DNA of 64,000 nucleotides, from NCBI GenBank assembly GCA_004292515.1, contig RDXB01000030.1, positions 1 to 64,000 of the forward strand. The letters are read 5' to 3'. The number at the start of each line of letters is the position of its first letter. Within the stretch, counting starts at the first letter, position 1. Positions 7,106-48,962 of the stretch are shown here, in pieces. Source of the DNA: Oscillatoriales cyanobacterium. GTDB taxonomy: Bacteria > Cyanobacteriota > Cyanobacteriia > CACIAM-69d. Under the pieces are notes generated by a model. It did not search any database, was not told the DNA's origin, and saw only the letters and a program-made list of their open reading frames with translations. A program made the translations under genes and the position numbers.

Positions 7106-7666
7106 CTATAGTCGATAGGTTGGTGTTGAGCGTACGAGTGCCGAAGACAATTCAGTGAAAATTTGATCAACATTATCCCCACTTCTTGCAGAAGTCCAAT
7201 ACAGCGGACATTGTTCAGACGAGATCAAGGGTTCCAAGCAATTTGCGATTTTTTCTAGCTCCCTTGGTTCAATCAAATCGACTTTGTTCAAAGCCAAAAT
7301 AACTGACCCGGCTGGTGAAATCGTTCGCACTAGATTAACGTGGTCGCGTATGTGATCTAGGGTTTCGGGGCGGGTGACATCAGCCACAATGATCGACCCC
7401 GAAGAGCCTTGCAAATAGCTGGGGGCAATCCGTTGGAATTTGGTCTGACCTTCCACATCCCAAATCAGAAGCTGCACAGCCGTTGGTTGGGTTAAGTCTT
7501 CATACTGATCATTTTCAGGGAGAGGCACTAATTTGCGCGAGATTTTGACACCAATGGTTGATAGATAGCGATCGCTGAATTGCCGATCAACAAACCGTCG
7601 CACGAGACTGGTTTTCCCAACAGCGTAATCACCCACTAAACAAATTTTCTTTGCAAGAGTTTGCAT
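7106..7666 (-). CDS. Rab/Ras-like small GTPase
   Basis: The start is placed at the internal ATG at 7666 (MQTLAKKICLVG), typical for bacterial Rab-like proteins; 7681 is an alternative. The product is about 186 residues. All GTPase boxes are visible: G1 GDYAVGKTS, G2 Thr in STIGVKI, G3 DVEGQ (Gln present as in hydrolysis-competent Ras), G4 NKVD and G5 TSA. There is no C-terminal lipidation Cys, so membrane recruitment would need a partner. Downstream of the envelope protein gene at 8107-11031 on the same strand, after about 440 bases, it likely works with that protein's longin/roadblock-like domain (inference). Function of the pair is unknown. Confidence 0.9.
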   Translation of the reverse strand: MQTLAKKICLVGDYAVGKTSLVRRFVDRQFSDRYLSTIGVKISRKLVPLPENDQYEDLTQPTAVQLLIWDVEGQTKFQRIAPSYLQGSSGSIIVADVTRPETLDHIRDHVNLVRTISPAGSVILALNKVDLIEPRELEKIANCLEPLISSEQCPLYWTSARSGDNVDQIFTELSSALVRSTPTYRL

Positions 7667-7802
7667 TACTTCACAGATCATTAACAGGAATTAGACTGGG
7701 TTTGATCATCTCGATCATGGCTGTAGATCACGAATTTAGATTATAGAGATCATCGTCAGATCATGGATTAATCAAATCATGGCTCACTCAATTGATGAAT
7801 CT

Positions 7803-7874
7803 ATTGACGGGTCGATTGACGGGTCGATTGACGGGTCAATCAATGGGTCAATCAATGGGTCAATCAATGATCAA
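7803..7874. repeat. 12-bp tandem repeat between the GTPase and envelope genes
   Basis: Six units of 12 bases, starting ATTGACGGGTCG and drifting to ATCAATGGGTCA. The block lies in the 440-base gap between the GTPase gene and the OmpA-like gene. An open frame covers it on the plus strand, but the predicted peptide is just the repeat (SIDG, SING) and is not credible as a gene. The remaining gap shows nothing recognisable. Confidence 0.85.
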
Positions 7875-8106
7875 GTAATCAAATGGTCGTGCCGTCATTC
7901 GGTAATGATGGACGGGTCAGATCCTTACCACATCAGCGATGAGCAATGTTTGACCCAAAGGCATCACCTCACGGGCACTACCCGATCCCGCTTCATGGAC
8001 TGTCCATCGGCCTTGGGTTTGATGATTCGAGAGCCGCCACTCTTCTCGGACGCGGCCCATCCGGTTCGGCTGATCTCCGCTGATCTCCTTGGGCGCTAAC
8101 CACCTG

Positions 8107-11031
8107 CTAGGGTGCTGCGATCGCCTCAAAACGCACACAGCGCCCCATCCAATCGGGATCATCCCGGGTCACATCGGGTGGCGGCCCCGTCTGGGAACCA
8201 ATGGTCAGTCGCTGGGCCTGAATGCCGCGACTCACGAGGGCCGACCGCACAGATTGGGCCCGCAAGAGCGCCAAACCAGCCCCGTTGGGTTCGGTGGTCA
8301 AACTATGACCAACCACCCGCAGGTTCAGGTCGGGATAGCGCTGGAGAAATTCGCGAATTGGCTCGATTTTGCCGGCTAAGTCAACATCGACAAAGCGATC
8401 GGCTCCTAACTCAAAGTACAACCGCACTGTCAAACTCGGAATGACGATTTGCAACGAGTTGACCACGCGCGCAATGCCCGGAATTTGGGAAAAAGCCGAT
8501 GCGATCGCACTAGATTCAGCACGGCTGCGCACAGATCCAGCAATTGTCGCGGTTCCTCCCGCTTGGGAGTCAATGCTGTAGCTGGCACCGACGCGATTGC
8601 CATTGCGGTTGAGGGTTTCGGAGACGCGGGCCACCTCTGCCGCTGCCAACACGGGATCGTTGGGCAATTGGACAGCAATGATTTGATTGTTGGGTGGGGG
8701 CGCTTGCTGGAACCGGCTGGGATCGGTGGCGCGATAGGTTTGCATGGCGGTGCGCTCGGCCTGGAACCGCAACCAGGGATAGGGCACTTTGCCTTGCAGA
8801 GATAGACGATCGCCCGTCAACTGCACCGAGAGATCGTACACCGCCAGTTGAGGGGAGGTGCTCAAGGCCGTTTCGATCGCCGTCATCAGGGTGCGATCGC
8901 GCTGGGCTTGGTACCGAAACCAAGTCCAAGGCAAGGCGATCGCCAACACAAGCCCCGTGATCAATCCTGCCAAGGCCCAGGGAAATCCAGCAGGTCGAGC
9001 TTGCTGCTGTTGGGGGCCGATCGTTTGGCGCACCAGGGCCGCCACGGCCAGGTGGATCGCCTGGGGTAAGGCGCTCGGATCGCCATCAAAGCTCTGAATC
9101 GGGCGATCGTAGCGCTCGACCAACCGCACCAGGGTCGAGCGCAAATGTCGATAAAGGGCCTTGGACGGCTCTCCCTGCACAATCACCGCCAAGTAGCAAT
9201 AGCCAGCCACTTCCATGGCAATTTGCGAGTCGTTGTACTGAATTTCGTGCAGCTCCGACACACTCTCGCTCTGGACAATGCAGTCGCTCACGAAGCTGCG
9301 AATGGCCGTCAGCATACCCGCCAGCATGTCGCCTTCGAGGGGTTCCTGTTCGGAAAACTGTGCCTCAGACATGACCAATCCCGAGGCTTTGTGGATCAAA
9401 AACACGGCCCGTACCCGGTAGGGCATGGCTTCCCGTAGGATTAGCTCCGCCTCCGACACCCCCTGCATTCGTGCTCGCAGCTTGCGACTAACCCCTTCAA
9501 CACTGAGGGTGTTTTGCACCTTTTCATTGATCGACTCGATCGCATCCTTCATGTACTTGGCGATCGTGTTGCCAATCACCGGGTACAGCGCATCGACCAT
9601 CGCATCACGCTCAACCACAATCTGCTGCTTGATCGACGCGCCCATCATCGGCCCGAGCGCTTCCACCATCGACATCGAATCCAGGCGATATTGCTCGCGC
9701 ATGGCGGCAGCCGTCTCAGGGGCCACAGCCCGAGAAATAGCCTGGGCCAGGGCTTCGGGTTGCTCTTGCATTCGGCTGATGATCGCCGCATCCAGCACAG
9801 GGGCGATCGCCTCAGCCATGGCTTGGCGATCCTGAAGCGATCGCTCCAAAATAATCCGGTCGATCGTTGGGAGCAGCGCCTGGCAAATTTCCTCACGCGC
9901 TTCCACCACTCGCCGCTCAATCAACCGCGCAATCAGCGGTGACAACAGCTCCACCAGCGAATCCGCATCATGCAGCAAGTAATGTATCTGCTGAACTTGA
10001 TGCTGCAAGGTCGAAAAGCGCGCTAGAAAATCCGATCGCAGCATCTCCACCGCTGGCGACACAACCGATGTAATTTCCCGCTCCACATCCTCAACCCGTT
10101 TCTGGGTCGTCGAAACGATCGCCGGCGACAGCAGCTCCACCAACATATCTGGATCGCGCAGCATCACCTGCACATAGTCAATCTGCCGTTGCAGAATATT
10201 GACCCCATCACCGGCTCCTTGATCGGCAGACTGAAGCAAATCATCGGTAAAAGACTCCAATCGATGGGCCAGGGACGGAGCCAGCACCCGAGTCAGCTCA
10301 TCCGGCTCATGGAGGATCTTGCGCATTTGGTCGATGTGCTTTCTGAGCTGCACATCCTCACCGGGCAAGGCCTGCGCCAAGACAGTTTCCAGGGACTCCA
10401 CAATTTCTTGTTCGGCCCCTCGCACTTGCCGTTCAATTTCTTGGCTGAGTACCGGTGATAAAAAATTCACCAAGGTTTCCGGGCTTTGCAGCAGGCGATC
10501 GAGCGGCTCCACCTGTTCCTGCAAACAAGTCACCTCGGAGCGCAGCCGATCCACACGGGTCTCAAGCTGGCTGGCCACATCCCCCACTAGCAAGTTTTGG
10601 AGCTGATCCCATGCGTCATTTGCAGTCGATGGGGGGTCAGGGGCTGTGCGGTTGGTGCGACGGCGCGATCGAGCAGCGGGCGTAGATGCTACGGAAGCCA
10701 CCACAGCCGAGTCTGTTGATATTGGCTGGCTTAATTCTGGCTGGCTTAATTCTGGCTGGCTTGATGTTGATAAGGGATCGATCGCCAATAGCGGTGGCTC
10801 GGATGTGGCAACGGCCACCGCTGGGGAGGCCGGAGCTGGGGGCAACTCCGGCACGGGCAACTCCACCGTCGATCGGTCTGCCACGACCGGCACAGCCGCA
10901 GACTCGGGAGCCGGCTGGGAGGCAGACTCCGCCGCAGACTGACCGGGAACCAGCAGCATGTCACCGATGAGGGATAGCCAATCTAGCCCGTCATCGGCAG
11001 CGCCAGAATTTGAGGCTGAAGGGTCGGCCAT
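8107..11031 (-). CDS. Envelope-spanning protein: helical repeats, longin/roadblock-like, TM, BON-like, OmpA-like
   Basis: 974 residues. Residues 1-140 are Pro/Ala/Ser-rich and disordered. Residues about 178-382 hold four copies of a motif resembling LLxDPDxLVELLSPxI (near 178, 236, 287, 349), followed by related shorter repeats to about 510. Residues 540-640 show the strand-strand-helix-three-strands-helix order of longin/roadblock domains (AVFLIHKASGLVMSE; then EVAGYCYLAVIVQGE). One membrane segment lies at 683-705. The periplasmic part has two BON-like segments (711-770, 795-863) and an OmpA-like domain (868-950) with VVGHS and the conserved Arg of LLRAQSV. The usual TD after GH is replaced by SLTT, so peptidoglycan binding may be altered. 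It probably links a cytoplasmic switch to the cell wall. The coiled-coil gene lies 34 bases upstream. Confidence 0.82.
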   Translation of the reverse strand: MADPSASNSGAADDGLDWLSLIGDMLLVPGQSAAESASQPAPESAAVPVVADRSTVELPVPELPPAPASPAVAVATSEPPLLAIDPLSTSSQPELSQPELSQPISTDSAVVASVASTPAARSRRRTNRTAPDPPSTANDAWDQLQNLLVGDVASQLETRVDRLRSEVTCLQEQVEPLDRLLQSPETLVNFLSPVLSQEIERQVRGAEQEIVESLETVLAQALPGEDVQLRKHIDQMRKILHEPDELTRVLAPSLAHRLESFTDDLLQSADQGAGDGVNILQRQIDYVQVMLRDPDMLVELLSPAIVSTTQKRVEDVEREITSVVSPAVEMLRSDFLARFSTLQHQVQQIHYLLHDADSLVELLSPLIARLIERRVVEAREEICQALLPTIDRIILERSLQDRQAMAEAIAPVLDAAIISRMQEQPEALAQAISRAVAPETAAAMREQYRLDSMSMVEALGPMMGASIKQQIVVERDAMVDALYPVIGNTIAKYMKDAIESINEKVQNTLSVEGVSRKLRARMQGVSEAELILREAMPYRVRAVFLIHKASGLVMSEAQFSEQEPLEGDMLAGMLTAIRSFVSDCIVQSESVSELHEIQYNDSQIAMEVAGYCYLAVIVQGEPSKALYRHLRSTLVRLVERYDRPIQSFDGDPSALPQAIHLAVAALVRQTIGPQQQQARPAGFPWALAGLITGLVLAIALPWTWFRYQAQRDRTLMTAIETALSTSPQLAVYDLSVQLTGDRLSLQGKVPYPWLRFQAERTAMQTYRATDPSRFQQAPPPNNQIIAVQLPNDPVLAAAEVARVSETLNRNGNRVGASYSIDSQAGGTATIAGSVRSRAESSAIASAFSQIPGIARVVNSLQIVIPSLTVRLYFELGADRFVDVDLAGKIEPIREFLQRYPDLNLRVVGHSLTTEPNGAGLALLRAQSVRSALVSRGIQAQRLTIGSQTGPPPDVTRDDPDWMGRCVRFEAIAAP

Positions 11032-11065
11032 AGATAGTGCCCGGAAACGCTAACAAACTCGTGGA

Positions 11066-11659
11066 TTACCCTTCCGGTGCAATCAACTCCACCGACAGCG
11101 CACTGGGCGGATCGATCGCCGCTTGCAACGCCGGAACCACATCCTGACCCTTCAGGCGCATTCCCAGCTCAAACAACAATTCGGCCATGCTTTCGCGCTC
11201 CAATTTGTTATCGCGCAGGGCGTTAATTCGTCCTTCCAGTTCTTCAAAAACTTGCGATCGCAGGGTGCGAATATCCTCTTGCAACTTGTCACGACTTTCA
11301 TTTAAGCGCCCATCGATCGCACTGGTTTTATCTTCAAAAGCACGATCCAGCTCCTCAAACGTACTTTGCAACCGGCGACCCAAGCGATCATTTTGTTGCT
11401 GAAGATCCGTTGTCTCTTCCTGCATTTTCATCGTGAACGCCTTCAATCGCTTGTCAAGGGCTTCGAGAGATGCTTGCAGTTGTGACGACAAGGACGACTT
11501 CACTTCCTCGATTCGATCCTCTAGATCTTGATGCAACAGGTTTAATTCCGATTCAATTTGAGCGAACCGATTTTCATAGTCGCGCAGTTGCGAACCTACG
11601 AGAATGTCGCGGATTTGATCGATATTACCCAGGCGCTCCCGAACATCTTGGCGATCCAT
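11066..11659 (-). CDS. Coiled-coil protein of unknown function
   Basis: The start is set at the ATG at 11659 (MDRQDVRERLGNIDQIRDIL); upstream in-frame sequence to 11851 is low-complexity Arg/Pro-rich and looks non-coding. About 197 residues. Residues about 20-150 are a long charged heptad pattern (ENRFAQIESELNLLHQDLEDR and onward), with no membrane segment, so a cytoplasmic dimeric coiled coil is expected. The gene ends 34 bases before the start of the envelope-spanning protein on the same strand and is probably co-transcribed with it. A partner role for that protein is an inference from position. Confidence 0.78.
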   Translation of the reverse strand: MDRQDVRERLGNIDQIRDILVGSQLRDYENRFAQIESELNLLHQDLEDRIEEVKSSLSSQLQASLEALDKRLKAFTMKMQEETTDLQQQNDRLGRRLQSTFEELDRAFEDKTSAIDGRLNESRDKLQEDIRTLRSQVFEELEGRINALRDNKLERESMAELLFELGMRLKGQDVVPALQAAIDPPSALSVELIAPEG

Positions 11660-27723: not shown

Positions 27724-27911
27724 TAGGGGGTGTCGTCAAATCGCCTGAAACCCTGATTCCACACCGACGAGATCGGGGGGGACAAGGGCGAGATCGGGGG
27801 GGACAAGGGCGAGATCGGGGGGGACAAGGGGCTTAAGCCCCTTGTTACGACCACTGGGGCACGGAAAATCAACCGTTTCAGCTTCAATCTAGGCAATGAC
27901 AACAACCCCTA
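27724..27911. mobile_element. Family A element with locally repeated left flank, ending in the OmpA stop codon
   Basis: 188 bases: left TAGGGGGTGTCGTCA, right reversed TAGGGGTTGTTGTCA. The core palindrome is at 27825-27844. Left of the core, a 23-base unit (GAGATCGGGGGGGACAAGGG-) is repeated three times, making this copy longer than most. The right TA (27910-27911) forms TAG, the stop codon of the OmpA-like gene on the minus strand. Confidence 0.88.
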
Positions 27912-28859
27912 GGGTGCGATTGGGGGTTCAATCACGATTTCGATCCGGCGATTGCGCTGGTGGCTGGCTGGGTCATCCCCAGGGGCGATCGGGCGGCTGG
28001 CCCCAAACCCGGCCGCCACCCAGCGGTAGGGCCCTTCCAGGCGATCGGCCAGGTATTGGGCCACGGCGCGGGCCCGGCGCAGGGACAGCTCGCGGTTCGC
28101 CGCCAGATCGCCGATCGCATCGCTGTGGCCCGCCACCCGCACCACGGCTCCCGGATAGGCCCGCAGGTCGGCGGCAATGCTGTCGAGGATTTCGCCCGCT
28201 TCCGGTCGCAAATTGCTGTGGTTGTCTTGGAACAACAAATCGGCGGGCAAACCAATCGCCAGGCGACCACTGGCCACCCCCTGGGGCGTGGGTCGAGGGG
28301 GAACACCGTTGGGAGTGCCATTGAGCGATCGGGCGATCGACTGCACCCGCTGTTCGATCGGCTCGGCCGGGGAGCGCGCACCCAACTCCGCCTCGATCGC
28401 CCCGGCTTCCCCAATCAGGGCGTTTAGATCGGCTTCTAGGGCCTGGAGTTGTTTTTGCAAAGCTTTGCGGCGATCGGGCGTGAGGGATACCAGCGGCGAC
28501 GGAACCGTGGAGCGCAAGGGCGAAGGACTGGCCGCCACTGTGGGCTGGGCCGGCACAATTGGCACGGTTCCCAGCCGCCCCCAACGACTGAGTTGGCGAT
28601 CGAGTTCGCGCAAGCCCAACTCAACCGGCGGTTGGCCCGTAACCGTGCCAGGAAACCAGCGGGCAACCGCCACCCCGCCCAGCAGCCCCACCACGGACAG
28701 CCCGCCCAACAGGCCCAACCGGAACAGCCACGCGATCGCCCCCCACGGGCCACCCCCTCGGGCAGGCGGCTTGGGTGGACGGCGCGATCGACCGCGCGAC
28801 GGCTCGGGCGATGACGGCGGTGGAGGCGGTGGGGGCGGTAGCTCAAACGGCGATTGCAA
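27909..28859 (-). CDS. OmpA-family envelope protein
   Basis: 316 residues. A Pro-rich cytoplasmic N-terminus (about 1-38) precedes one membrane helix (FRLGLLGGLSVVGLLGGVAVA), then a periplasmic linker with a coiled coil around 130-165, then an OmpA-like peptidoglycan-binding domain (about 205-310): LLFQDNHSNLRPEAGEIL, RVAGHSDAIGDLAANRELSLRRA and RNRRIEIVI. Asp and Arg that bind diaminopimelate are both kept, unlike in the OmpA-like gene at 8107. The gene probably tethers the inner membrane to peptidoglycan. Its TAG stop is formed with the border of a family A element. Confidence 0.86.
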   Translation of the reverse strand: MQSPFELPPPPPPPPSSPEPSRGRSRRPPKPPARGGGPWGAIAWLFRLGLLGGLSVVGLLGGVAVARWFPGTVTGQPPVELGLRELDRQLSRWGRLGTVPIVPAQPTVAASPSPLRSTVPSPLVSLTPDRRKALQKQLQALEADLNALIGEAGAIEAELGARSPAEPIEQRVQSIARSLNGTPNGVPPRPTPQGVASGRLAIGLPADLLFQDNHSNLRPEAGEILDSIAADLRAYPGAVVRVAGHSDAIGDLAANRELSLRRARAVAQYLADRLEGPYRWVAAGFGASRPIAPGDDPASHQRNRRIEIVIEPPIAP

Positions 28860-44381: not shown

Positions 44382-47300
44382 CTATCCCTTGGTTTCTGGC
44401 AACAGGCACTTATCGGAATCGCAGCCCGCCGGCCCCGCTTCCGCCATTTCGCCTAGGTCATAGCGCCGCAGAGCCTCATGGAAGCTATCAACCCGCCGCC
44501 GCGACAACATGACCGCATGGAGCGTCTGATAGGTTTCCCGCGAAATTGGCTCAAAGGGCAGCCGGGGGAAGGTTTGCAGATCGTCAAATCGGGCCAGCAA
44601 TGCCGCTGAAATGTAGCCTTCATCGTTTTTGATCGCCCGGTGAATCCGTTGGCCCAGGGGTTCGATTTCTGGCTCCCGCAGCTCGATTGTGGCGCTGGTG
44701 TTGTGGGTGGTGTAGTGGGTCTGCACCTGCATATAGAAGTCGAACTGAGCCAGGGCGCTGAAGTTTTCGATCGCGATCGTGTCCGCTCCCGGCAAGTCCG
44801 CCCAAGACACCGCCACCGGAATTTCCACCAGCCACTCGGTACAACGCGGATCAAACGGATCGTTTAGCAAATTGCCGTTTTCGTCCTTGTCCGACTGGGA
44901 CGGCACAATGCTGTAGCCATAGTCCAAACAAGCCCGGGCCACCGGATCGTTTTTGCGGAACGTGATCCGCCGCAGGAACCGGGCCGCCTTGGGCGGATGC
45001 CAACCGGGAGAAGCCCCCGTCAGCAGAGATTTGGTCCCCGCCGGCTGGGTTGTGGTGCAGCGGTTGGGGCGGCGCAGACCGTGGCGATCGCAGTAGTCCC
45101 ACACGGTTTGATGCACGATGTCGCGCCAACGGCTGAGGTATTGCCGTTCTTGGTCTTTAAATTCCAAACCTTGCACCGTGTCCGGGCGGCCCGCTCCCCA
45201 CCAACGCAACCAATCGACCCCAAAAGCTTGCACAAAGAAATCGAACAAGCCGGTGAAGGAAACGCCCACGATCGGGTCAATCGATCGGCTGTATTGATAG
45301 CGCTCTTCTTGGAACCGATGATTCAGCAACCCAGCAACCGATAGCGCTCCCGCCTTGAAGGCATCTTCTTGGGTTTTGTAATCTTTTGGATCAATTTGAT
45401 TCAGGTGAATCTCAGACAAATTGCAGTGAAAATCAGCGCCTAAAATTTCACCGCAGTTGTGGGCTACAAAGCCATTGGCATCAAACCGCGCCGGGCCAGG
45501 AACCGTGCAATCGTAAACTGGCTCGATTCCGTCATGCGTGATTTCAGCGATCGTGACACTGAAGCGATCGCGATTCAGCTTGCGCTTGTAGTTGCTGAGT
45601 AATTCACTGAGCTTGGCTTGTTTTTCAGGTTGCCGGAAACCTACTCGATCACGAAACTCCGTCAGGTTGTCATTAGCGATGACCAATTCATGTTGTGCTT
45701 GGCAGAAGTAAGGAGCCAAGTTGCGGTCAGAATCGGGCATCAGGCGAACACCGGCTGGGCGACGATTTTGATAAATCGTTGAAACAATGCCAACTCGCAG
45801 CAACATCCGCTGAACAGCTTCCAGGGTTGCCAAGTTGCTTTGGGCTAAACGCACGCTAATGCCTTTTTGCTGAGTGCCTTGGACGCTGCCATCAGCATCA
45901 AATAGCCCTCGCAAGAAGCCGCAGTGAAACTCATAGCTCGATCGCTCAATTTCACCCGTAACCCATTTTTCGCGTCGGTGAATCCCAAAGCGATCGGCTA
46001 GGGTTGCCAAACCACTCGAAGCAATTTGGTGCAGGTGGTGATGAGGATGATAAGAACCAGCCAAGTTCGCGCCACAGGCAACCGTTTTCTGGAGAGTCGC
46101 AACAGCGTATTCAGCCATTTCCTGCTGCGACTCACCCCAAAAGCGCAAGATTCCTTGATCGCTCCAGCTAGTTTCTGCTAGGGAACCATCCCCAACAAGG
46201 CTACCGAGCAACCAGCCTTCATCAAAGGTTCCGTTGCCCGACCAAGGTTGAATTTCACGGTGATTATGAATGGAAAGGCGATCGCCCGGTTGCAACGCTT
46301 CAACAGCAGTCCATTCCAAGTATTGCCGTTTTTGAGTTTGGGCACTCACGCGCAAGAGTTGATGATTTGCCGTCAGTCGCAACGACAATCCTTCGCGAGT
46401 TGTGACTTTGAAGACCGGTTTATCACCTGTATAGGAAAAGCCATCTGCCGTGGTGCTAAACAGCTCACCATTGACATAGGTTCCATGCTGTTGACCAATC
46501 AGCTCTTTCACTTGGCGCGGGCCAAACTCTGTATGTACCCAGGTATCGGCTGTGACGCAGGGATTCAAACCATACCGTTGCAGGCGATGGGCAGACTCAC
46601 GGTCATCAATTTCTGGTGATTTTTCTTTCAGCCACTCTGCACCTTTTTGAGCTTGGAAAGCAGTGATGAACGCTTTCTTTTCGTCAATTCCAGAGATCAA
46701 GTCGGCATTACTGCGGGCGATCGCCTCGCCGGCCCATTGGATTGCGCCTTCGCCGGAATAGAACTGTTTGCGAACTGCGTCGATGCACTCAGTTTCCGTG
46801 GGTTTGCGATGGAAAACACGGGTATGATTCGCCATCCGCAGGGAGTCGCGATCGGGATCAATTCGCCAATTGCCTGCCTCATCTTGCTGCCACAAATTAT
46901 CTTTGGCAGTAGCCCCCAGTTCGTCAGTGCTATTGAACTGCCGCATCCCAGCACTGTTGGAAACTAGTAGCCCTTCGCAAACAAACTCGTGAACTGTTGC
47001 CACCTCAATATCAAAGGTCTCAGCAACACGCACACCCAATTCAACATTCGTTACGGCTACCGGAACCAAATCTGTGGATTGAGGCAGGTAGCGCTTGAGA
47101 GTCGGAAGCGTCATTTGTTGCTGCGCATTGCTCCAGTGATACTGATAGGTATTCACCAGGGGACGCACCATAGCTTTGGGAAAGCCATGATCCTTGAAGG
47201 ATTGGGGGCGATCGCGTTTTTGGGCTGCGAATTGCAAGGAATGCGCTGTAAAAGCTGACTCGACTGCCTCAAAGACCTGCTCACCCACCGTGACCAATTC

Positions 47301-48962
47301 ACCTTCCCATTTCCCTGTGCGTTTCCGAACGGAGCTGCACAAGCGAACTGTCACGCCTAGGGAAGCATAGAGTGCTTGAACTTGTTGCAGGAATCGCTGA
47401 TGGACTGATGCAACCAAAACTCCTTGCGAGTGACAGCCATCAGCATCTGCTAAACCTGCCAAATAACCCCACCGAATTTCTGGTGTTCCTAACAGAATTG
47501 CGTCAGGCACAGTCAAAGCCTGGAAAGATTGCTTGAATTGCCCCAGATAACGATTCAGAGCTGAGGAATTGAATTGCAATTCATAAGCTTTAGTACGGCA
47601 TTGTTCGGGCGATCGGAGGGTAAACGTCTTCAACCCAAATTCCCGACCAACAGCTTGTAAACGATCCAAAATCTGTGGGCTGTCTTCGTGCACGCGGAAG
47701 CGCACACGCAAACCATCACTAGCCACAGACCCATCACCTTGCAGATAGCCCAAGAAGTAGGCCACATCAGGCGTAAGGGCGGGTACGGTGATTGCCTTGG
47801 TTTTACCAGTGACCGTCTCGCGGAATTCAGGGAGTTCTGTAGGAGTTCCGGGGATACTTTGCGGTACAAAAATCAGACGATCGCCCGGTTGCAAATCACG
47901 GGCTTTGACCATCCGATAATTTCCCTGAACGTCATCTAAAACAGCCACCTTGTGATCAGCGGTGCAGTCTAATGATCCATCTTGGGTATGAATTCGACAT
48001 AAAGTCTGCTGACCTTGCACAAAGAAGTTGGTGACGGGGTAGAAGCCTTTGCTGGTGAGTACCCGATCGCCCACGCGAACTTTTTGAATGGGTACGAGGC
48101 CGGCAGTCGTATGCACCAGCGCCTCACCTGGTAAGCAGCGGCGAATATTTCCCGCCACAATTGTGACAGCCGCTTCATCAATCAGTAGGCAGCATTCCAC
48201 GGAGGTGAGTTGCCGACCGATCGCCCGGTTCAAAATTCGAGTCACGCGATCGTACAGTTCCGGCAGCTTGATCGGGTTGGCCACGCCGCCGAAGCCCTGG
48301 AGCGTTTCGCCTGCCGGCCGCACGTTGCTGAGATCGATCGCGATGTTGACCTCGCCATCGAAGCGATCGTCACTGCACAGATCCAGCAGGGTTTGGTAAG
48401 ACTTCACCCAGCCCTGGCGACTGTCGCCCACCACCACGCGCACGGCGTTGCCGAGAATATCCACGGTGGTTTCCTGCAAGCGATCGGCCGCGGGCACAGC
48501 GCCAAGCTCGCCAGTCACGGTGACGTTAATCGCATTGCGGACGGCGGGCAACTGGCTAATGTAGTGCGGTTCCAGTACGCCGCCCGTGCCGCAGCCCATC
48601 ATCGCTAGATCCATCATCAGCCCAAAGGCTTTCCAGTCAACCACGTTGGTGCTGGTGCAGTTGTAGGCTCCCGAGAAGTTCTGCGGGTTTTCGAGCCATT
48701 CCGTGCCGCCCACCCAGAGCCAACGGCCCGAGGGCAGGGCAATCACCCGTTTTTGCATCCGATCGATCAGTTGCGCTTCCTCATCGGTGAGCTTGGCCAG
48801 CTTGACCAGGCCGCGCAGGGTTCGATCGGTGGTTTCAGCCCAGGACTCGCGCTCGCCATTCATCCGGCGGCTGTAGGTGCGGTAAAACACCGGGTAGGCC
48901 GTGGGGGCATTGGCGGGAAAGTCGGCGGGCTGCTGCGCGGAACGGCTGAGTTCTTGCACCAT
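44382..48962 (-). CDS. nrdJ: Adenosylcobalamin-dependent ribonucleotide reductase with two inteins
   Basis: 1526 residues in the precursor; 764 after removal of both inteins, a normal size for the class II monomeric ribonucleoside-triphosphate reductase. It makes dNTPs through a cobalamin-derived thiyl radical. Exteins: 1-275, 670-801, 1170-1526. The first redox Cys is in NCTSTN (102), the radical Cys is C1170 in NP/CGEI, the second redox Cys is in FHCNLSE, and the C-terminal reducing pair is CDSDKC. No second RNR is seen in the window. No cobalamin riboswitch was recognised upstream. The intein junctions are in frame, so splicing is expected to give a functional enzyme. Confidence 0.95.
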   Translation of the reverse strand: MVQELSRSAQQPADFPANAPTAYPVFYRTYSRRMNGERESWAETTDRTLRGLVKLAKLTDEEAQLIDRMQKRVIALPSGRWLWVGGTEWLENPQNFSGAYNCTSTNVVDWKAFGLMMDLAMMGCGTGGVLEPHYISQLPAVRNAINVTVTGELGAVPAADRLQETTVDILGNAVRVVVGDSRQGWVKSYQTLLDLCSDDRFDGEVNIAIDLSNVRPAGETLQGFGGVANPIKLPELYDRVTRILNRAIGRQLTSVECCLLIDEAAVTIVAGNIRRCLPGEALVHTTAGLVPIQKVRVGDRVLTSKGFYPVTNFFVQGQQTLCRIHTQDGSLDCTADHKVAVLDDVQGNYRMVKARDLQPGDRLIFVPQSIPGTPTELPEFRETVTGKTKAITVPALTPDVAYFLGYLQGDGSVASDGLRVRFRVHEDSPQILDRLQAVGREFGLKTFTLRSPEQCRTKAYELQFNSSALNRYLGQFKQSFQALTVPDAILLGTPEIRWGYLAGLADADGCHSQGVLVASVHQRFLQQVQALYASLGVTVRLCSSVRKRTGKWEGELVTVGEQVFEAVESAFTAHSLQFAAQKRDRPQSFKDHGFPKAMVRPLVNTYQYHWSNAQQQMTLPTLKRYLPQSTDLVPVAVTNVELGVRVAETFDIEVATVHEFVCEGLLVSNSAGMRQFNSTDELGATAKDNLWQQDEAGNWRIDPDRDSLRMANHTRVFHRKPTETECIDAVRKQFYSGEGAIQWAGEAIARSNADLISGIDEKKAFITAFQAQKGAEWLKEKSPEIDDRESAHRLQRYGLNPCVTADTWVHTEFGPRQVKELIGQQHGTYVNGELFSTTADGFSYTGDKPVFKVTTREGLSLRLTANHQLLRVSAQTQKRQYLEWTAVEALQPGDRLSIHNHREIQPWSGNGTFDEGWLLGSLVGDGSLAETSWSDQGILRFWGESQQEMAEYAVATLQKTVACGANLAGSYHPHHHLHQIASSGLATLADRFGIHRREKWVTGEIERSSYEFHCGFLRGLFDADGSVQGTQQKGISVRLAQSNLATLEAVQRMLLRVGIVSTIYQNRRPAGVRLMPDSDRNLAPYFCQAQHELVIANDNLTEFRDRVGFRQPEKQAKLSELLSNYKRKLNRDRFSVTIAEITHDGIEPVYDCTVPGPARFDANGFVAHNCGEILGADFHCNLSEIHLNQIDPKDYKTQEDAFKAGALSVAGLLNHRFQEERYQYSRSIDPIVGVSFTGLFDFFVQAFGVDWLRWWGAGRPDTVQGLEFKDQERQYLSRWRDIVHQTVWDYCDRHGLRRPNRCTTTQPAGTKSLLTGASPGWHPPKAARFLRRITFRKNDPVARACLDYGYSIVPSQSDKDENGNLLNDPFDPRCTEWLVEIPVAVSWADLPGADTIAIENFSALAQFDFYMQVQTHYTTHNTSATIELREPEIEPLGQRIHRAIKNDEGYISAALLARFDDLQTFPRLPFEPISRETYQTLHAVMLSRRRVDSFHEALRRYDLGEMAEAGPAGCDSDKCLLPETKG
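45456..46559 (-). other. Intein 2 in NrdJ (LAGLIDADG type)
   Basis: Residues 802-1169 (368 aa). It starts at Cys (CVTADTWVHT), ends FVAHN, and the next extein residue is Cys1170. Splicing block B has TANHQLL; the penultimate His and final Asn are present. The homing endonuclease has two LAGLIDADG-like helices: LLGSLVGDGSL and LRGLFDADGSV. It sits between NP and CGEI, so the catalytic radical Cys also serves as the +1 splicing nucleophile. Confidence 0.93.
46956..48137 (-). other. Intein 1 in NrdJ (LAGLIDADG type)
   Basis: Residues 276-669 (394 aa). It starts CLPGEALVHT, ends LLVSN and is followed by extein Ser (SAGMRQF). The penultimate residue is Ser instead of the common His. Block B: TADHKVA. 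Two endonuclease motifs: FLGYLQGDGS and LAGLADADG. The insertion site is in GNIRR/SAGM of the reductase barrel. Confidence 0.92.

Follow-up and report, generated by a model that had tools for sequence, protein, structure and literature searches.

What would a Rab-like GTPase do in a cyanobacterium, encoded beside a protein that appears to cross the cell envelope? The question is raised by three adjacent genes in a window of 64,000 nucleotides (the whole stretch of DNA that was analysed) from an Oscillatoriales cyanobacterium. The original prediction put them forward as a candidate undescribed system, but the module is already published, since Wuichet and Søgaard-Andersen described the same neighbourhood in 2014 as that of the Group 1 Rup GTPases, which lie beside a coiled-coil protein, a 'DUF-TM-OmpA' protein and a signalling output enzyme (PMC4316618). 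Group 1 was reported in Cyanobacteria, with an output that is a histidine kinase (HK) or a GGDEF/EAL protein with a conserved N-terminal region; its GTPases are without the Gln of G3, and a Gln of the output's N-terminal region was proposed as the substitute (PMC4316618). The Rup GTPases were described as very similar to Rab, Ran, Ras and Rho, none was coupled to an MglB-type regulator in that survey and, by 2014, none had been experimentally characterised (PMC4316618). We found no other paper discussing the module in the open-licence literature, nor any in print that gives the longin assignment, the class III cyclase output, the division of the system between two GTPases in this genus or the variability of the G3 residue beyond its loss. 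The window locus is best explained as a cyanobacterial variant of the Group 1 Rup system, matched to Group 1 by the published description, and the longin domain and the cyclase link reported below appear to be new.

A check of the open reading frames of the window found three consecutive minus-strand genes where they had been claimed, in the order coil gene, central gene and GTPase gene (Table 1). The gap upstream of the GTPase gene contains, at 7791-7869, 12-bp tandem repeats of ATTGACGGGTCG and then GGGTCAATCAAT. The corresponding gap measures 325 and 362 bp in two congeneric relatives and mostly less than 100 bp in other families. Such an arrangement is not a product of chance, because the gene order is kept across many cyanobacterial families.

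Table 1. Positions of the three genes and of the parts of the central protein in the window
Feature	Positions	Strand	Details
Rab-like small GTPase	7106..7681	-	191 aa; likely true start ~7666; Pfam Ras, Rab structures nearest, G boxes
Gap, central gene to GTPase gene	7682..8106	-	425 bp
Central membrane protein	8107..11031	-	974 aa; helical repeats, longin, TM, two BON, OmpA
OmpA-like domain	8119..8424	-	Residues ~870-971; Arg924 present, DAP-contact Asp replaced by Leu911
Second BON domain	8446..8631	-	Residues 801-862; Pfam BON E 1.1e-9
First BON-like domain	8674..8829	-	Residues ~735-786; core model, Rv0899/OmpATb match, two Pfam BON stretches
Transmembrane helix	8923..8988	-	Residues ~682-703; hydropathy maximum GFPWALAGLITGLVLAIAL; helix in model
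Longin domain (predicted)	9010..9420	-	Residues ~538-674; preceded by invariant SEAEL-containing helix; AF2, Foldseek, VIA-align; Pfam Fuz_longin_1 in L097, L094
Helical repeat array	9532..10629	-	Residues ~135-500; alignment and AF2 helices 2-184 of core model
Coiled-coil cytoplasmic protein	11066..11659	-	197 aa

A family profile was searched in 390 genomes of the class and the gene neighbourhoods were then read, which revealed two kinds of central-protein locus: type A, encoding window-like proteins of ~700-1260 aa with two BON domains, and type B, encoding proteins of ~490-670 aa. The GTPase gene lies directly downstream of the central gene at 37 of the 50 type A loci and at all 18 type B loci; the gap between the two genes is often -4 to 14 bp. 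This pairing, for which the original prediction had looked to a neighbourhood survey, is therefore conserved. The coil gene is found upstream of the central gene at 34/50 type A and 18/18 type B loci, and the complete order of coil, central and GTPase genes at 31/50 and 18/18, respectively. Specificity for filamentous cyanobacteria, considered from the genus names of the best 80 named loci, was rejected: the module occurs irrespective of the filament marker HetR, being present in genomes such as G027 and G041 that have no HetR. At one locus (L103:3398-5550) the central gene is in two ORFs, by frameshift or sequencing error, with the coil, GTPase and output genes present. At four others (L040, L041, L104 and L105) a gene family of ~650 aa lies upstream of distant relatives of the central protein; in most of these relatives the match is confined to the periplasmic BON/OmpA part, and the loci may be a separate variant.

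The GTPase of the window matches Pfam Ras (E 4.6e-28), has Rabs as its nearest PDB sequences and keeps intact, in the family alignment, all of the predicted G boxes (G1 GDYAVGKTS, G2 T, G3 WDVEGQ, G4 NKVD, G5 TSA). Its first ATG may sit five codons too early, because its homologues start at residue 6. The criterion for Rup (a single-domain Ras-superfamily protein of 150-240 aa with DxxG in G3) assigns it to Rup and not to MglA, G3 carrying Asp without the Thr of the MglA type. The Gln of G3 is kept here (DVEGQ); in the type A relatives the position varies between S, H, Q, R, N, D and K, and in type B it is always E. The two types of GTPase form separate, supported clades in our tree, and the switch regions are nearly invariant within each, reading YLSTVGVKI and SYLQG in type A and YQTTVGVKI and SYLRG in type B.

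What, then, is the unknown domain of the partner protein? A longin/roadblock-like domain had been placed at residues 530-650, with a suggestion that this part be modelled alone; the longin part of that claim stands and the roadblock part does not. Residues 505-680, modelled with AlphaFold2 (AF2) on an alignment of 59 relatives, gave a mean pLDDT of 79.9 and the strand/helix order EE-H-EEE-HH, which is the beta-beta-alpha-beta-beta-beta-alpha-alpha order by which we define a longin fold. AP2 sigma, COPI, Sec22b and Mon1 are the top Foldseek matches of this model, and its VIA-align Z scores with Sec22b (13.8), Vamp7 (13.0), Fuzzy bound to Rab23 (12.1), Mon1-Ccz1 with Ypt7 (10.6) and a Lokiarchaeal longin (10.1) are well above the 7-8 that VIA-align treats as background. 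A roadblock domain was rejected as the alternative: the 50 VIA-align matches listed are all longin-superfamily members (Fuzzy, Mon1 and TRAPP, which are parts of Rab GEFs, are among them), and MglB, with MglA, comes only at Foldseek rank 50.

The longin sequence of the window itself has no Pfam match, and a longin profile run against PDB sequences returned nothing significant. Fuz_longin_1 (PF19036) is nevertheless matched in relatives, at L097 (E 4.2e-5; 24.2 bits vs a cut-off of 26.1) and L094 (E 0.013), and when PF19036 was run over the 390 cyanobacterial genomes its best match was exactly the L097 longin region (E 1.3e-4), with a score that falls short of the curated cut-off. L097 and L094, the source of the best Fuz_longin_1 matches, encode central proteins of ~1200 aa with many added repeats, and no GTPase gene is nearby. 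The predicted longin fold is well supported because the AF2 model, the longin matches of Foldseek and VIA-align and the Fuz_longin_1 matches of the relatives all bear on it, and the unknown domain of the Group 1 partner protein is very probably a longin on this modelling. Ancestry shared with the longins of MON1 and FUZ is only suggested. Nor is the fold alone proof of GTPase binding, since SNAREs and adaptins contain longins as well.

The remainder of the central protein has the membrane-spanning layout that was foreseen, Pfam, hydropathy and the model together giving repeats and longin, a single transmembrane (TM) segment and then BON-BON-OmpA. A core model of residues 340-974 contains the repeat helices of ~23 residues each, the longin, the TM helix, two BON-like domains and the OmpA domain, in a domain-to-domain arrangement that is unreliable (pTM 0.38); its Foldseek matches include OprF and other OmpA domains, the BON+OmpA protein Rv0899 and the dual-BON DolP. 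The copy number of the repeats differs between species. In the N-terminal linker, a 15-bp perfect tandem repeat (10723-10762, minus strand) codes for SQPEL repeats. The BON match lies above the Pfam cut-off. For OmpA, the cut-off of 27.2 bits is passed in the DNA search (27.6 bits), and the protein search falls short of its cut-off with 24.0 bits. A second OmpA-domain protein, with a MotB/ZorB-like score, is encoded elsewhere in the window (27909-28859, minus strand); its minus-strand neighbours encode a formyltransferase, a hybrid histidine kinase and a pentapeptide-repeat protein, and no MotA/ZorA partner was seen among them. Also in the window, at 44382-48962 (minus strand), lies a gene for a B12-dependent ribonucleotide reductase of 1526 aa with two LAGLIDADG and two intein-splicing stretches (an intein with homing-endonuclease domains).

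Whether the periplasmic part would hold the cell wall may be judged from the residues of OmpA domains that contact diaminopimelate (DAP), which we take to be Asp271 and Arg286 of Acinetobacter OmpA. Binding of peptidoglycan by the window protein is uncertain because the Arg is invariant (69/69 relatives have the equivalent of Arg924), but the Asp is found in only 47/69, with another residue in 22/69 and Leu911 here. We consider it improbable that the central protein is a structural tether that joins membrane and peptidoglycan in the manner of Tol-Pal or OmpATb, with the GTPase modulating assembly. Its TM-BON-BON-OmpA layout does match mycobacterial Rv0899/OmpATb (2l26, E 9e-6) and the invariant Arg would suit such a role, but the variable Asp position argues against it. 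So, too, do those type B relatives in which repeats and longin are retained and the periplasmic part matches much less well, because of which the cytosolic part is the more conserved of the two.

The coiled-coil protein of the trio starts at 11659, in agreement with its homologues, and its orthologues in the genomes G001 and G002 are 87% identical, equal in length and encoded immediately upstream of the central gene. It has coiled-coil matches only, those to apolipoprotein and similar Pfam families being noise far below the cut-offs, and no longin is recognisable in it. A role in anti-phage defence was considered and rejected: the GTPase and central protein are without a PADLOC match, and the coil protein matches only the coiled-coil tail of ZorA.

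Most loci have a fourth component, a signalling enzyme encoded directly downstream of the GTPase, which is a histidine kinase/response regulator, a GGDEF-EAL protein or a PAS-GAF class III cyclase (Guanylate_cyc). The type A outputs share an N-terminal PAS-like domain whose closing helix has a recurring Gln (LxQxANE), and the equivalent of this region in type B sits on a separate protein, which sometimes also matches class III cyclases weakly. The gene for the latter protein was noted between the GTPase and GGDEF-EAL genes at L118:4562-5563, L128:4269-5285 and L039:3525-4700 (all minus strand); it encodes a PAS-like domain followed by an apparent degenerate class III cyclase, which is clear at L128, marginal at L039 and without a Pfam match at L118. 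As judged from these sequences, the output of the module is often a putative class III nucleotide cyclase.

The window locus has no output gene, and the sole protein of this genome with the output's PAS-like N-terminal domain is a PAS-GAF class III cyclase encoded on another contig (C42), beside a paralogous GTPase, GTPase 2. There is one such PAS-like-domain protein per genome in all six genomes of the family and all six are class III cyclases, encoded beside GTPase 2 in G000, G001 and G002 and just upstream of the central gene or its operon in G003, G004 and G005. This single PAS-like-domain cyclase per genome is the strongest functional clue that we have, and it points to a GTPase that feeds a second-messenger enzyme. 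The same facts could be read as decay, the trio being a partial copy whose cyclase moved away with the second GTPase and whose own GTPase no longer serves the longin protein; the missing output gene, the 425-bp gap with its tandem repeats and the paralogous GTPase beside the cyclase would all fit. We regard this as very unlikely, however, for the split is shared by G001 and G002, where the ORFs and G boxes are intact and the central and coil proteins are 74-87% identical to those of the window and the GTPase 65%.

Our favoured reading, which we hold to be probable, is that the central protein is a receptor anchored in the envelope, that its longin domain docks or regulates the GTPase and that the GTPase in turn controls a second-messenger enzyme. 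The central protein would cross the inner membrane, its periplasmic BON-BON-OmpA part sensing or holding the wall or envelope and its cytoplasmic part consisting of the helical repeat array and the longin domain. The longin would dock the GTPase and probably determine which nucleotide it carries, much as Rabs and MglA are controlled by longin and roadblock domains; such domains dock GTPases and serve as GEFs or GAPs, for example in MglA/MglB and TRAPP (PMC10933270). We infer this step from the fold, the pairing of the two genes and the near-invariance of the switch regions. The coil protein might bridge to the repeat array. The switched GTPase would then act on the output enzyme through its N-terminal PAS-like domain, the enzyme in the window genome being the PAS-GAF class III cyclase; alternatively, sensing could fall to the PAS-like domain itself and the GTPase could act at another point. 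The parts, the fold, the gene order, the linkage and the single copy of the adaptor (the PAS-like-domain protein) come from the analysis itself, and the signal sensed, the direction in which nucleotide state flows and the roles of coil and repeats are what we infer around them. Several observations weigh against it: at 13/50 type A loci, a few of which lie at the end of a contig, no GTPase gene adjoins the central gene, the only GTPase of G003 is unlinked, no GTPase was found in G005 (a genome 93% complete), and the window locus has the 425-bp gap before its GTPase as well as no output gene.

The original prediction had the GTP switch control wall attachment, motility, polarity or filament integrity directly, which the data do not support: the module's fourth conserved component is an enzyme of signal transduction, HetR is not tracked and the DAP-contact Asp is Leu. 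A related proposal, a polarity or motility switch like MglA/MglB in which the longin is a GAP or GEF that places the GTPase at poles or septa and OmpA/BON anchors the machinery to the wall, could draw on the GTPase binding of roadblock and longin domains in MglA/MglB and TRAPP (PMC10933270), on the MglA-MglB match at rank 50 and on the envelope-spanning central protein. It seems unlikely to us, because G3 has Asp where MglA has Thr, the partner that is conserved works in second-messenger or phosphorelay signalling, the module occurs independently of HetR and no motility gene recurs alongside it. Cyanobacterial cAMP has been linked to motility, and because of this a role in motility or polarity downstream of the receptor, GTPase and enzyme is possible.

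The longin assignment provides a concrete candidate regulator for the Rup GTPases, and the class III cyclase a concrete candidate output. It is tempting, though doubtful, to go further and see in the longin-Rup pair a true bacterial counterpart of the eukaryotic pairs of Rab and longin GEF (Mon1, Fuzzy, TRAPP), with common ancestry and binding mode; were this so, bacteria would have had the Rab-longin partnership as a means of transmembrane second-messenger signalling, independent of vesicle traffic and of Asgard archaea. A 2024 Asgard study gives the roadblock/longin families an archaeal origin and finds the small GTPase genes of the Asgard isolate MK-D1 generally outside longin-gene operons. 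The bacterial operon shows the pairing of Rab-like GTPase and longin genes directly and so bears on the question of when Rabs and longins became partners.

Among known systems, Mon1-Ccz1, Fuzzy-Inturned and TRAPP likewise combine a longin with a Rab-type GTPase, at a fold Z of 10-12 and with a marginal Fuz_longin_1 sequence match; the present system differs in being bacterial, in its TM/BON/OmpA fusion, in having no second longin partner that we could find and in a GEF role that is putative. A tri-longin chain as in Mon1, Fuz and HPS1 was not seen, the modelled residues 340-974 having one longin. MglA/MglB similarly pairs a Ras-superfamily GTPase with a protein of the roadblock/longin superfamily, but MglA has Thr in place of the G3 Asp (PMC3000849) and a separate roadblock partner, whereas here the domain is a longin fused into an envelope-spanning protein. 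The actinobacterial conservons (CvnA-D) also hold a small GTPase, a roadblock-type protein and a signalling enzyme in one operon, though with an MglA-type GTPase, a free-standing roadblock protein and no OmpA receptor. OmpATb/ArfA (Rv0899, 2l26) has the same succession of BON domains and OmpA-like domain, without the cytoplasmic repeats, longin and GTPase. In YfiBNR, too, an OmpA-like envelope protein controls a second-messenger enzyme, but there no GTPase is involved and the periplasmic YfiR carries the signal (PMC4887326). The closest relation is to Group 1 Rup, from which the window locus departs in keeping the Gln of G3, in having no adjacent output gene and, in this lineage, in an output that is a class III cyclase, absent from a published text that names HK or GGDEF/EAL. 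It shares with Group 1 the Rab-like GTPase, the coiled-coil neighbour and a second neighbour composed of a conserved domain, a TM segment and a C-terminal OmpA domain.
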